This document shows, piece after piece, positions 7,089 through 32,947 of a stretch of 45,200 nucleotides of DNA; positions within the stretch are counted from its first letter, which is position 1; the number at the start of each line of letters is the position of its first letter. The stretch is taken from positions 1 to 45,200 of the forward strand of contig QGNN01000011.1 in the NCBI GenBank assembly GCA_003228105.1, given 5' to 3'. This DNA comes from Chloroflexota bacterium. Its GTDB lineage: Bacteria; Chloroflexota; Dehalococcoidia; Lucifugimonadales; UBA826. A program made the position numbers and the translations under genes. The notes under the pieces were generated by a model. It did not search any database and had not been told where the DNA came from. It worked only from the letters and a program-made list of their open reading frames with translations.

Positions 7089-8435
7089 CTAATTACCAAT
7101 TAATTCCTTGCTTTTTTGCTCCGCTTTTAATGCAAACGCCTCTGCAAAATAGGAACATAGACCTGTGTATTCTTCTGGATCCAATAACCTTAGTATTTCC
7201 TCCTTAGTTAACTGGCTGGCCACTTCTGGTTCCTCTTGCAAGGTCTGAGAAAATGGCTTCCGTTCATTGACGGATCTTTGAGCTGCCTCATAAACTACAT
7301 CATGCGCCTTTTGTCGACCCATTTTCCAGCCAAGCTCTAGCATGATTCTCTCTGAAAGTATTAGCCCTCCACTAAGATCTAGATTTTGTCTCATCCTATC
7401 GGGAAACACCTTTAAGTCAGAAAATATTTCAACGAGACCTTTTGTGATCTGGCCCATTAGTACGCATGTCCTGTCAATAGCTGAATTTATCATCATACTG
7501 GTAGTCTTATCAGCTTCGTGCTCAGTTTGCATAGCTTCTAGAGACATCGGCACAAATGTCCTAATTTCAGAGGCCCACGCGACTACATCTTGACATAAAC
7601 GAGGGTTTCTTTTCTGGGGCATAGTTGAAGAGCCAACCGCGCCTACAGGAACAGGTTCTTCCACTTCACCAAACTCCTGTTTCATCATGGTATAGATTTC
7701 TCGAGCCATTTTGGTAGAGGTAGCCGCGAGCATGGCAAGAATAGTGATGTATTCAGTCAGATGATCTCCTATCACTCTAGAGGGCATCGTCATGGATCCT
7801 AATCCAAGTTCTTCTCCTATCAGCCTTTGGGTTTCAAGCCCTTCAAGGCCTACAGAAGCCATAGTCCCCGCTCCTCCCCCAAGCATTGCCACAAAAACAC
7901 GTTCTTCGCTTGCTTGCAAACGATCCACATGTCGCATCAACTCGTCTATCCATACAGCGACTTTGTAACCAAAGGTGGCTGGCACAGCATGTTGGCCGTG
8001 TGTTCTTCCTGGCATCGCGTAGTTTTTTGTTGTTTCAGCCAGCTTTCCCAGGATATGAAGCAAACTACCTAGGTCTTCTAGGTAACTGTTATGGCACTTT
8101 TTAATTAATAGCAGTTTTCCTGTCTGTGTTATATTTTGAGTCGTGGCACCCCAATGTATATATCCGCCTGCTTCCTCGCCACATATTCGGTCTAGCTCCC
8201 AAATTAAAGGAACCAGGGGATGCCCTGTTTTATCCAATCCATCATAAACATTTTGTATATTCAGAAGATCCAGCTTAGCTTTTTGCGATATTATCTCGGC
8301 GGCTTTGTTGGGAATAATTCCTTGGCTTGCCTGGGCTCTTGCAAGGGCTGCTTCCACATCTAAATAGGACTGAAAAAGGTTAGACTCACTGAACATTTCA
8401 CTAACTGCTGTCTTGTTTTTAATGTAAGGTGCCAT
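7089..8435 (-). CDS. Argininosuccinase/fumarase-superfamily lyase (PurB- or PcaB-like)
   Basis: A 448-residue lyase of the aspartase/fumarase superfamily, soluble and tetrameric in known members. It shows all three conserved regions: GYIHWGATTQNITQTG, PGRTHGQHAVPATFGYK (catalytic His) and the signature VGSSTMPQKRNPRLC containing the mobile catalytic Ser loop. Members cleave C-N or C-O bonds with release of fumarate or, in the PcaB branch, cycloisomerise carboxymuconate. The MPQKRNP variant and genome context (next to CoA-transferases, not purine genes) make purine biosynthesis only one option. The gene converges on the CoA-transferase pair. GAGGAG precedes the ATG at 8435 by about a dozen bases. 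Confidence 0.85.
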   Translation of the reverse strand: MAPYIKNKTAVSEMFSESNLFQSYLDVEAALARAQASQGIIPNKAAEIISQKAKLDLLNIQNVYDGLDKTGHPLVPLIWELDRICGEEAGGYIHWGATTQNITQTGKLLLIKKCHNSYLEDLGSLLHILGKLAETTKNYAMPGRTHGQHAVPATFGYKVAVWIDELMRHVDRLQASEERVFVAMLGGGAGTMASVGLEGLETQRLIGEELGLGSMTMPSRVIGDHLTEYITILAMLAATSTKMAREIYTMMKQEFGEVEEPVPVGAVGSSTMPQKRNPRLCQDVVAWASEIRTFVPMSLEAMQTEHEADKTTSMMINSAIDRTCVLMGQITKGLVEIFSDLKVFPDRMRQNLDLSGGLILSERIMLELGWKMGRQKAHDVVYEAAQRSVNERKPFSQTLQEEPEVASQLTKEEILRLLDPEEYTGLCSYFAEAFALKAEQKSKELIGN

Positions 8436-8481
8436 CTCTTCTATTTATCTCCTCAACTGTATAAATCTACTAATGTCCAAA

Positions 8482-8700
8482 AAGTTTTCCACAGAACCTG
8501 TGGAAAACTTGTGCAATTATATGTCTATTTTATTAATACCAAGAGGCTAGGCAGGGGACAAAGTACCATTGATATCCACACTCAATATAAACAGCAGTCA
8601 ATATACACAAATTTTTCTGTTACTCCTCTAATCTTCCACAATTTATCATGATAAAATCTATATATATCCACCGCCTAGCAGATGCGAATATCCACGATTC
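8482..8700. other. Cluster of DnaA-box-like motifs in AT-rich spacer; candidate replication origin
   Basis: Two perfect matches to the relaxed box TTWTNCACA form a 13-base inverted repeat with a 3-base loop: TTTTCCACA at 8485-8493 and its complement at 8499-8507. Further boxes in the plus orientation, one mismatch from that consensus, are ATATCCACA (8572-8580), ATATACACA (8601-8609) and TCTTCCACA (8632-8640). Weaker ones are ATATCCACC (8664-8672) and ATATCCACG (8688-8696). Between them is AT-rich sequence, including a 14-base palindrome TTTATCATGATAAA (about 8642-8655). The whole 8436-8750 spacer has no credible gene; it separates the divergent lyase and obg genes, so the inverted repeat is not a terminator. 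Origin function is inferred from motif density only. Confidence 0.45.
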
Positions 8701-8750
8701 ACACAGCCTTATTATTACTACTGTTATTTATAGAGGTAGAAAATCGATTT

Positions 8751-10022
8751 ATGATTGATAGCGTATTAATACAAATAATAAGTGGTTCTGGAGGTGACGG
8801 GGCAATCAGCGGCCGCCACGAAAAATTTGTGCCGAGAGGGGGGCCTGATGGAGGAGATGGCGGAAGAGGGGGCAACGTCATTATAAAGGGAGACCATAAC
8901 GAAAACACACTTATTAATTTTAGGTACGTGAAAAATTTTATGGCTGGAAAGGGAGGGAATGGATCTAAAGCAAAGAAGCACGGTAAGGACGGTGAAGACA
9001 CGATAATAAAAGTTCCAGTGGGAACTCAGATAATGGATGAAGAAGGCTCAGTTGTTGCCGATATTGTGGTCTCAGGACAAGAATACCTTGCAGCAGCAGG
9101 AGGAAGAGGTGGGTACGGCAACGTCAAATACTCTTCTTCCACAAGTCAGTATCCAGTGATCGCTCAAGGGGGTGAATTAGGATCTGAACATAATCTAAGA
9201 TTGGAATTGAAATTGATCGCCGATGTAGGGATAATAGGTGTTCCAAATGCCGGGAAATCGAGTCTTATCTCATTTCTCACTGCTGCACGCCCAAAGGTGG
9301 CTAGTTACCCTTTCACAACCATTGAACCGGTACTTGGGTTGGTAGAACACCGGGAAAAAGATTTTGTGATGGTAGATATCCCTGGCCTGCTTGAAGGAGC
9401 CCATCAAGGAATTGGTCTCGGACACGAGTTCCTTAGACATATTGAAAGAACTCGAGTTCTGGTACATCTTGTCGATGGAACGTCAGAAAATCCGAGAGGG
9501 GATTTTCACAAAATTAACCGGGAATTGGCATTATTCGACGAGTCTCTTAAAGATAAACCACAAATCTTAGCGATTAATAAAGTTGATCTTGAGGAAGTGA
9601 GAATACTTGCCGAGGATATCAGGGACTCAATGGGGGAAGATGCCTGGAGGTTTCATATAGTTTCGGCAATATCAGGCGAGGGAGTTTCCGAAATGATGGA
9701 TGAGGTGGTGCAAATTTTATCTGAGCAACCTACCCTAAACGCTCCAAAGTTTTCGGTCGAACCAGAGGAAGAACCTATTCCGATATTACGCCCAGAGCCT
9801 CGACGAAGGGGAATTTCAGTGCATCGAGAAGAGGGTGTATATATCGTGGAAGCTCCGGGGGTTGAAAGAATAGCGCAGAGGATAGATTATGAGGATTGGC
9901 TTGCCCGCATGCAATTTTATAAACACATGCAGAAAACAGGAATCGTAAAGGCTTTAGAGGACGCGGGGATTACCGAAGGTAATACTGTTCGCATTGGTAA
10001 CGTGGAATGGGAATGGGACTAA
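8751..10022 (+). CDS. obgE: Obg/CgtA ribosome-assembly GTPase
   Basis: An essential GTPase that acts in 50S ribosome maturation and stress control. The Obg fold at the N-terminus is glycine-rich (SGSGGDGAISGRHEKFVPRG, then GGPDGGDGGRGG). The G domain has G1 GVPNAGKSS (residues about 163-171), G2 with PFTT, G3 DIPGLLEGAHQGIGLG and G4 NKVD. The C-terminal OCT domain runs from about residue 340 to the end. The open frame extends to an ATG at 8682, but that adds 23 hydrophobic residues alien to the family. The ATG at 8751, with GAGGTAG upstream, begins MIDSVLIQIISGSGGDG as expected and gives 423 residues. Confidence 0.95.
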   Translation: MIDSVLIQIISGSGGDGAISGRHEKFVPRGGPDGGDGGRGGNVIIKGDHNENTLINFRYVKNFMAGKGGNGSKAKKHGKDGEDTIIKVPVGTQIMDEEGSVVADIVVSGQEYLAAAGGRGGYGNVKYSSSTSQYPVIAQGGELGSEHNLRLELKLIADVGIIGVPNAGKSSLISFLTAARPKVASYPFTTIEPVLGLVEHREKDFVMVDIPGLLEGAHQGIGLGHEFLRHIERTRVLVHLVDGTSENPRGDFHKINRELALFDESLKDKPQILAINKVDLEEVRILAEDIRDSMGEDAWRFHIVSAISGEGVSEMMDEVVQILSEQPTLNAPKFSVEPEEEPIPILRPEPRRRGISVHREEGVYIVEAPGVERIAQRIDYEDWLARMQFYKHMQKTGIVKALEDAGITEGNTVRIGNVEWEWD

Positions 10023-31030: not shown

Positions 31031-32461
31031 TCATCTTGCGGCACCGGTCAAGTTGTTTCTAATAGCTAAAACATCGTTTCTGAGCTTGCCGTCTATATTG
31101 ATTAATGAGGCGACTTTTTCGTGGCCATGTATCACGGTTGAATGGTCTCTTCCGCCCAGTATTTTGCCTATTGCAGAAAGACTCAAGGATGTTTCTTCTC
31201 TGAGAAGAAACATCGCGACTTGCCTAGGAACCAAATATATTTTTGTTCTGAGAGGTCCCATAATTTGATCAGAGGTTACTCCAAAGTAGTTTGACACTTC
31301 TGAAATAATTTTGGAATCAGAGATAGGCTCTTTGTTAATTCTTTCAGAATCTCCCACCATTCGCTTGACGGATTCAATTGTAATGGGCTCATCGCGAAAC
31401 TGAGCCAAAGCAACGACTCGATTTAGAAGACCTTCTAATTCTCTAACATTTGAACGAATTTTATCTCCTAAAAATTCAATTACATTCGGAGGTATATCAT
31501 ACCTTTGCTGGGCGGCCTTACCCCTTAATATGGCTATTCTGGTTTCTAGCTGGGGCGCCTGAATATCAGTTACCAATCCGCCAGTTAGTCTTGAGGTGAT
31601 ACGTGATTCCAAGGTTCTTAGCTCGTCAATATTCCGATCACTTGCAACCACTATTTGTTTGTTTTCTACATGCAGGGAATTGAAAGTATGAAAAAAGCCT
31701 TCCTGTGTTTGTTCTTTTCCTATAAGAAATTGAATGTCATCAATTAAAAGAACATCGGCAGTTCTATATTTATTCCGGAATTCCTCAGTTTGTCCATTTT
31801 GAATTGCCCTCACATACTGGTTCGTAAATTCCTCGGAGGTCACATAGATCACGACTAGGCCAAGTTTTTTGGTTTCGTGCCCAATTGCCTGTAATAAGTG
31901 TGTCTTTCCTAAACCTACGGGTGAATGAATCACTAAAGGGTTAAAAATTGTTCCAGGGTTTTCTGAAACCGCCTTTGCCCCGGCAAATGCAAGGTGATTG
32001 GAATTTCCAACAATAAAATTCTCGAATGTGTATCTTTTATTAAAGTCATGGGACTCGATACGTGGTTCACTTATAACATTGGAAACTGGGTCTTGGAATA
32101 AATCATGGCCAGATATTATGTGCTTCGCAGTAGGATCTGATCTGCTATATGGGCTAGACGGGATTACAGGTTGCTCATTTTTCCCTGAAATAATAATCTC
32201 ATTAATTACCGCGAACTTGAGCTTAACGTCGAAGCCGATTATTGTCCTCAATTCTTGTTCGAGCATGTCTAGCATACGTTCTTCTAAGTATTGAGCAGTG
32301 AAAGCGTTTGGAGTTTCCACATTGAACTCATCAGAAATAAACGAAACGCCAACTGTGTCTCGAAGCCAAGTATCATAGCTGGGCTTCGGGATGTTCAGTT
32401 CTACTTTACCCAGAACAGAATTCCAGATTTTATCGGCTTTTTGAATTGTTTCTCGGTCCAT
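31031..32461 (-). CDS. dnaA: Chromosomal replication initiator DnaA
   Basis: The 476-residue product has all DnaA domains. Domain I is IWNSVLGKVELNIPKPSYDTW. A linker follows to about residue 140, then the AAA+ domain with Walker A PVGLGKTHLLQAIGHE (about 181-196), Walker B VLLIDDIQFLIGKEQTQEGFFHTFN and sensor II REL region RSNVRELEGLLNRV. Domain IV has VPRQVAMFLLREETSLSLSAIGKILGGRDHSTVIHGHEK, split around the DNA-binding signature GGRDHSTVIH. Unusually, dnaN does not follow; the next gene is a histidine phosphatase, and upstream is a metal-binding lipoprotein. One relaxed DnaA box (TTTTACACA, 32465-32473) abuts the start and could be autoregulatory. Confidence 0.96.
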   Translation of the reverse strand: MDRETIQKADKIWNSVLGKVELNIPKPSYDTWLRDTVGVSFISDEFNVETPNAFTAQYLEERMLDMLEQELRTIIGFDVKLKFAVINEIIISGKNEQPVIPSSPYSRSDPTAKHIISGHDLFQDPVSNVISEPRIESHDFNKRYTFENFIVGNSNHLAFAGAKAVSENPGTIFNPLVIHSPVGLGKTHLLQAIGHETKKLGLVVIYVTSEEFTNQYVRAIQNGQTEEFRNKYRTADVLLIDDIQFLIGKEQTQEGFFHTFNSLHVENKQIVVASDRNIDELRTLESRITSRLTGGLVTDIQAPQLETRIAILRGKAAQQRYDIPPNVIEFLGDKIRSNVRELEGLLNRVVALAQFRDEPITIESVKRMVGDSERINKEPISDSKIISEVSNYFGVTSDQIMGPLRTKIYLVPRQVAMFLLREETSLSLSAIGKILGGRDHSTVIHGHEKVASLINIDGKLRNDVLAIRNNLTGAAR

Positions 32462-32947
32462 AAATTTTACACAAAACTACCTTCAGTATTTGAGCCCTTT
32501 TTTTCAAAAGGCAATATCGGAGATTTCCCGACTCCTCAACTTCTACCCCACACTTGCCTACATTAACACTGCTCTCAATATGAGCAGGGCAGGACAAGAC
32601 ATAAACCCGAAAAATTTCTTGGAGAAGTCATCTAAGATGACGTTGTATATTTTCGATCCTCTCCAGAACTCCTGAAAGTCAATCAAAATTGAACTTCTTT
32701 TCAGATATATGTTGTACACCCCATATTTAACACTGTGCAAGGGAGCCAAGAGGGAATTTAGACGTCAATTTGGTTCAAGCTATTAAAGGACGAAATTGTT
32801 ATTCATGAAACACAATTCATGCGTTAATGACGATATTTACAGTGGAATCTTGCATATTTATTCGAAAACATTGAAAAAGAAGGGTATTCCATGATTTTGT
32901 CCACTGTTTTTCATACTCCGAGGAAAGCAATGTAATAATCATGGAAT
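32462..32947. other. 485-base spacer upstream of dnaA, no gene seen
   Basis: No frame here has family features. I see one relaxed DnaA box at 32465-32473 (TTTTACACA), a perfect 7-base inverted repeat GTCATCT-A-AGATGAC at 32627-32641, and a palindromic TTCATGAA with an ATTCATG copy around 32802-32821. The region presumably holds the dnaA promoter on the minus strand. It lacks the dense box cluster expected of a dnaA-linked origin. Confidence 0.5.

Follow-up and report, generated by a model that had tools for sequence, protein, structure and literature searches.

A predicted chromosomal replication origin between purB and obg, apart from dnaA, in a SAR202-type bacterium

The purB–obg spacer and its DnaA boxes

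The analysed stretch of DNA (the window, 45,200 nucleotides) makes up positions 1–45200 of contig 11 in a 52-contig MAG with a 1.62-Mb genome (88.7% complete), whose named relatives are MAGs labelled Dehalococcoidia, SAR202 or Chloroflexi. Members of SAR202 abound in the ocean but are hard to culture. The part of interest is the spacer between purB and the divergently oriented obg, a gene encoding a growth-controlling GTPase. The features are as follows:

7089–8435, minus strand: purB (adenylosuccinate lyase; Pfam PF00206/PF10397), left neighbour of the predicted origin, divergent from obg
8436–8750, no strand: purB–obg spacer, predicted oriC (box cluster, strand-skew breakpoint, conservation)
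8482–8510, no strand: inverted repeat AAGTTTTCCACAG-AAC-CTGTGGAAAACTT, holding DnaA boxes at 8485–8493 (plus) and 8499–8507 (minus)
8572–8580, plus strand: DnaA box ATATCCACA, the best conserved box (TTATCCACA in the three more distant genus members)
8601–8609, plus strand: weak DnaA box ATATACACA (ATATTCACA in two close relatives)
8632–8640, plus strand: weak DnaA box TCTTCCACA
8664–8672, plus strand: weak DnaA box ATATCCACC
8688–8705, plus strand: tandem trio-proximal boxes ATATCCACG (8688–8696, 2 mismatches) and ATTCACACA (8697–8705, 4 mismatches), by the BUS rule of PMC8287927; similar layout in relatives
8706–8708, plus strand: GC spacer GCC between boxes and trios
8709–8732, plus strand: eight in-frame DnaA-trios, TTA TTA TTA CTA CTG TTA TTT ATA; predicted unwinding site
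8751–10022, plus strand: obg GTPase (Pfam PF01018, PF01926, PF09269)
31031–32461, minus strand: dnaA (Pfam PF00308, PF08299, PF11638), on the opposite strand to obg
32465–32473, minus strand: lone conserved box TTTTACACA a few bases before dnaA; candidate site of autoregulation rather than an origin

The purB–obg spacer contains the densest DnaA-box cluster of the whole window. A preliminary description, made from the sequence alone, had reported seven box-like 9-mers within about 215 bases, six of them in one orientation, two boxes in a 13-base inverted repeat and a 14-base palindrome, and all of these were recovered. The seven boxes, each with at most two mismatches to TTATCCACA, occupy positions 8485–8696 (212 bases), six on the plus strand and one on the minus strand. 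Three of them have no more than one mismatch, i.e. TTTTCCACA at 8485 (plus) and again at 8499 (minus), and ATATCCACA at 8572 (plus). The inverted repeat (8482–8494 / 8498–8510) is perfect, and the palindrome TTTATCATGATAAA is located at 8642–8655, where only its right half is conserved (TGATAAA, invariant in six genus members). Domain IV of the encoded DnaA holds a DHSTV stretch, close to DHTTV, the signature of DnaA proteins reading TTATCCACA.

Three boxes with at most one mismatch were packed into 215 bp in 3 of 300 Markov-1 copies of the window, seven with at most two mismatches in 2 of 300, and both counts together in none of the 300. When the simulation used the AT-rich composition of the spacer itself (the GC content of the 400 bases 5' of obg is 34%), each box count was matched in 1 of 3000 sequences. 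Single boxes are uninformative, since the pattern TTWTNCACA has 134 matches genome-wide versus 155 for the reversed pattern; the window alone holds 180 boxes at up to two mismatches. A looser cluster of three relaxed boxes on the plus strand within 604 bases of another contig (G000:C5:19144–19747) was found among the matches listed.

A second, imperfect 13-base inverted repeat (85%), GCTAGGCAGGGGA / TCCACCGCCTAGC, lies at 8546–8558 / 8667–8679, with its arms 108 bases apart, and straddles the middle of the box array. A promoter consensus scan of positions 8400–8800 returned one promoter-like site versus 1.8 expected, and no terminators. The scan did not call TGATAAAAT at 8650–8658, which includes the invariant TGATAAA and resembles an extended −10 promoter that would serve obg from within the predicted origin.

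The feature extends past position 8700, where the preliminary description had ended it, to about 8732, and the added part includes a tract of DnaA-trios that was missed earlier. In Bacillus subtilis, tandem DnaA boxes, a spacer and DnaA-trios together form the basal origin unwinding system (BUS), a layout reported as predicted in 1755 of 2070 origins (PMC6669920, PMC8287927). The rule, as given in PMC8287927, allows two mismatches in the box, four in the tandem box and a spacer of up to 16 bases, followed by at least three NAN trios. At position 8688 we found boxes with two and four mismatches, a distance of 12 bases from the better tandem box to the first trio (the reported peak is 10–13 bases), and eight trios with a middle A, which on the other strand read 3'-AAT AAT AAT GAT GAC AAT AAA TAT-5'. 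The predicted unwinding site ends 18 bases 5' of the obg start codon.

A scan of the window with at least five trios, a threshold chosen after the sequence was seen, gave a single match, at 8688. The BUS layout alone is not rare, with a mean of 1.6 matches per simulated window (n=40); five CTA/TTA trios, as at 8688, were reached in none of the 40. In the relative contig G007:C4 the best of 13 BUS matches (280108) is the homologous site before obg, and in G004 the top of eight falls in the same spacer but not on the trio site. A combined box-plus-trio pattern matched once in the 1.62-Mb genome and its control not at all, and the trio score reached P≤0.05 against each spacer's own simulation for 8 of the 12 spacers of the family and 15 of the 24 at order level; both the pattern and the scoring were devised after seeing the site. 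Tracts of the form box–GC–TTATTATTACTGTTA-like sequence also precede obg in other families of the order.

Conservation of the boxes and strand skew around obg

Among the checks that the preliminary description had proposed were conservation of the boxes in relatives and the position of the GC-skew minimum, and both outcomes speak for an origin at obg. As to the first, the boxes recur in the family and are in register within the genus. The spacer aligns end to end across six members of the genus, whose obg is 80–100% identical and all of which carry either ATATCCACA or TTATCCACA at −179 from obg and keep the inverted CCACA/TGTGG pair at −266/−252 (one with an N). Among the columns of this alignment, with the trio tract excluded, 37 of 63 in boxes are invariant versus 62 of 211 in the rest of the spacer (P=3e-5). 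At the inverted pair CCACA-N5-TGTGG (8488–8502) the flanking base co-varies, being G/C here, T/A in loci L007 and L008, and C/G in L009, and such paired changes suggest a symmetric protein site or a hairpin. Loci L004, L005, L007, L008 and L009 were equated with genomes G007, G002, G001, G005 and G004, respectively, by agreeing coordinates and identities.

Twelve of the 16 family genomes entered the spacer counts; left out were G003 (44 bases before obg), G006 (an obg fragment), and G011 and G014 (obg not matched). In these twelve, the 300 bases that precede obg hold 25 boxes with at most one mismatch and 68 with at most two, versus 1 and 22, respectively, for the reversed consensus in the same spacers. 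At least one box of the stricter kind is present in 10 of the 12, and at least four of the relaxed kind in 11 of the 12. Box decay is seen in G008 (none at one mismatch, four at two) and in G015 (none even at two). On the long contigs G007:C4 (317 kb) and G004:C19 (134 kb), at least three boxes with at most one mismatch within 300 bp occur only just upstream of obg. The shorter pieces of G009, G010 and G012 have one such place each, also before obg, and those of G008, G013, G014 and G015 have none.

The second check concerned strand skew, which was fitted contig by contig, the MAG being in 52 contigs. Third-codon GC skew was regressed on gene strand plus a step, and genes were entered by their midpoints. 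In five of six family contigs the switch is at the start of obg and not at dnaA, placed to within about 1 kb of obg. The best steps are as follows: window, 8–9 kb (obg at 8751; bootstrap 6.0–11.5 kb); G007:C4, 280.0 kb (obg 280.17; bootstrap 277.0–284.0); G004:C19, 48.0 kb (obg 48.16; bootstrap 46.2–50.5); G013:C22, 39.0 kb (obg 38.99; bootstrap 39.5; dnaA not scored); and G012:C59, 27.0 kb (obg 27.12; bootstrap 27.5–29.0). Because genes enter by midpoints, steps at 27.5 kb in G012 and 39.5 kb in G013 still leave obg on the right-hand side. The log-likelihood gain for a step at obg versus one at dnaA was 13.3 versus 1.3 in the window, 54.5 versus 10.3 in G007, 55.0 versus 17.6 in G004 and 37.6 versus 0.4 in G012, where dnaA is 2 kb from the contig end. 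In the sixth contig, of G010, the best step is at 67 kb (bootstrap 65–67.5), between obg (63.3) and dnaA (70.0–71.3), and relative to it obg is 1.1 and dnaA 15.5 log units lower.

Raw cumulative skew was rejected as an origin locator owing to its ambiguity, and the gene-strand regression was used instead. In G007:C4 the raw curve drops over 280 kb and turns between obg and dnaA, and G004:C19 behaves alike. Each of these contigs has a minimum at obg and a second, slightly deeper, 15–19 kb on and nearer dnaA; the absolute minimum is at 299 kb in G007:C4 (dnaA at 303 kb) and at 63.5 kb in G004:C19 (dnaA at 68–69 kb). The raw curve is blurred because minus-strand genes predominate between obg and dnaA in this genus (plus-strand fraction 0.27–0.30 in G007, G004 and the window).

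dnaA and obg in the family, order and class

In the window dnaA is located about 22 kb from the predicted origin, i.e. outside the roughly 2 kb within which oriC and dnaA are commonly adjacent. As described earlier, its 485-base upstream spacer has one relaxed box, TTTTACACA. The same box lies 12–13 bases upstream of dnaA in 8 of 15 family dnaA genes, and TTTTGCACA precedes the gene in two more (at 13 bases in G004 and 33 bases in G014). This single box probably serves the autoregulation of dnaA. In the 15 genes, the 400 bases before the start hold one to three boxes with at most two mismatches, and at most one box with one mismatch or none. The preliminary description had also remarked that dnaA lacks dnaN beside it. 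This is so, but it carries little weight because the dnaN family PF02768 has no match anywhere in the 88.7%-complete genome.

The genes dnaA and obg share a contig in nine family genomes, and in all nine dnaA follows the end of obg at a distance of 5.4–24.9 kb and is encoded on the other strand. Searches with tblastn showed purB next to obg in 11 of the 12 family genomes whose sequence reaches far enough ahead of obg. In G015 purB was not found in the available piece, and the sequence of G003 before obg is too short. An origin at obg had been called an unusual arrangement; this has to be inverted, as dnaA and obg are usually neighbours in the order and the class.

The order-level obg search covered 25 genomes, picked mainly for few contigs from 147 drawn (133 with dnaA); one, G077, gave no obg match, and boxes upstream of dnaA, as well as gaps, were scanned in 20. 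Outside the family, 19 of 24 order genomes have dnaA just ahead of obg and in the same orientation, with gaps of 135–3302 bases, and among the remaining five the two genes are about 91 kb or more apart in four and on different contigs in one. Four low-contig genomes of the order, G144, G135, G113 and G029, have dnaA far from obg. In other orders of the class, the dnaA–obg gap is below 5 kb in 43 of 62 genomes with both genes (median 327 bases), and the other 19 have them on different contigs (14) or apart on one contig (5). At least two boxes with at most one mismatch were found in the 420 bases before obg in 11 of 20 order-level genomes, and several of these sets are arranged − − + + with a spacing of 21 or 11 bases; 6 of the 20 had no such box in the 1500 bases before obg. 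Two such boxes upstream of dnaA were seen in none of the 20, where distances were measured from the match start, which partial matches put inside the gene.

These comparisons suggest that dnaA–oriC–obg is likely the ancestral block. Since dnaA and obg are usually neighbours in relatives, often with boxes between them, it is most likely that the origin kept its ancestral place and dnaA moved away, with purB (minus strand) in the presumed former place of dnaA before obg in 11 of 12 family genomes.

The predicted origin, its alternatives and its meaning

Based on the boxes, the BUS layout, their conservation, the skew switch and the common adjacency of dnaA and obg, all directly observed, we predict that the purB–obg spacer is the chromosomal oriC of this SAR202-type bacterium, and hold this to be very likely. 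By analogy with B. subtilis (PMC6669920), DnaA would bind, unwind and fire the origin at the spacer. DnaA-ATP would occupy the box array (8485–8672) and the tandem boxes beside the trios (8688–8705), the upstream boxes raising the local DnaA concentration and the tandem boxes loading a filament onto the trios. This filament would grow over the GC spacer onto the trios (8709–8732) and pull out that strand, so that the duplex would open some 20 bases 5' of the obg start codon. Helicases could then load at the opened duplex, and two forks would depart, one towards purB and one towards obg. With dnaA presumably relocated in the family to about 5–25 kb beyond obg and inverted, the gene would now be read against the fork.

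The site resembles the BUS of B. subtilis in its tandem boxes, the 12-base distance, the eight trios, whose middle base on the strand to be unwound is adenine, and the additional boxes upstream. It differs in that the second tandem box is weak (four mismatches, the limit of the published rule) and in that the trios end 18 bases before obg with dnaA 22 kb off, whereas the B. subtilis origin adjoins dnaA. Origins apart from dnaA are known from E. coli and Caulobacter. In Synechococcus the origin is reported to lie beside dnaN, not dnaA (PMC2275245). As in these three bacteria, oriC and dnaA are separated here and DnaA boxes are kept at oriC; in contrast to them, the neighbours are purB and obg, and comparison with relatives suggests that it was dnaA that moved. 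Dehalococcoides belongs to the same class of bacteria. Its predicted origin is reported to have the box TTATCGAAA (PMC2275245), unlike the TTATCCACA-like boxes found here.

The main competing explanation is that the true origin is located at dnaA (about 32 kb) and that the boxes before obg mark a promoter region through which DnaA controls obg and purB. Most bacterial origins are reported to adjoin dnaA (PMC6669920), the absolute raw-skew minima of G007:C4 and G004:C19 are near this gene, and the single box before it is conserved in most of the family. However, the corrected skew is 12–44 log units worse at dnaA than at obg (G007, G004, G012, G010 and the window), at most one box with no more than one mismatch occurs in the 400 bases upstream of any of the 15 family dnaA genes, and trios beside tandem boxes are features of unwinding, not of an operator. 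We thus consider this explanation very improbable; as an origin candidate, dnaA was rejected on the strand-corrected skew and the lack of a box cluster.

Slightly less probable still is that the boxes serve DnaA titration or timing close to the origin without being the origin itself, like datA and DARS of E. coli. Such a function would also suit a dense cluster in which some boxes are weak, the exact firing point is invisible in sequence, and the best skew step of G010 is 4 kb from obg. Against it speak the trios and tandem boxes in BUS order and the skew breakpoint, which five of six contigs place in the same kilobase. A third alternative is chance AT-rich sequence with an ordinary obg promoter. 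In its favour, two-mismatch boxes are common, the BUS rule finds chance matches in simulated windows and the spacer is AT-rich, yet the cluster simulations, the conservation of box columns in the genus and the independent skew evidence contradict this, and we regard it as the remotest of the three. The purB–obg spacer is, in our opinion, very probably a real origin, with an ordinary mechanism and a gene context that is new as far as the searched literature goes. No description of an origin at obg was found among titles and abstract openings of the literature on SAR202/Dehalococcoidia/Chloroflexi origins (DoriC may hold predicted members of the class), and a literature search for DnaA-trios in Chloroflexi returned no publication.

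A broader and tentative suggestion, which we think rather doubtful, is that obg, rather than dnaA, anchors the origin in the Dehalococcoidia, so that after a break of the dnaA–oriC–obg block the origin would stay in the obg leader. The skew outcomes of G144, G135 and G113 are the reason for this caution. G144, a member of another family, has dnaA and obg 1.5 Mb apart and speaks against a wider tie of oriC to obg across the class: the corrected skew in 160 kb around each gene gave a step of the wrong sign at both. In coarse 20-kb samples, the best split missed both genes in G144 and G135; that of G113 fell, weakly, in the interval holding obg. If the suggestion were true, duplex opening and obg transcription would share one site, and dnaA would be free to sit elsewhere, even head-on to the fork.

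The position of the origin has a practical side, as growth-rate estimates from metagenomes (peak-to-trough depth) need its true place, and within this family an origin assigned to dnaA would be misplaced by roughly 7–26 kb, an error that may be far larger in relatives. This family is, in addition, a clear natural case in which dnaA most likely left and the origin kept its neighbour, and therefore lets one ask what holds oriC in place.
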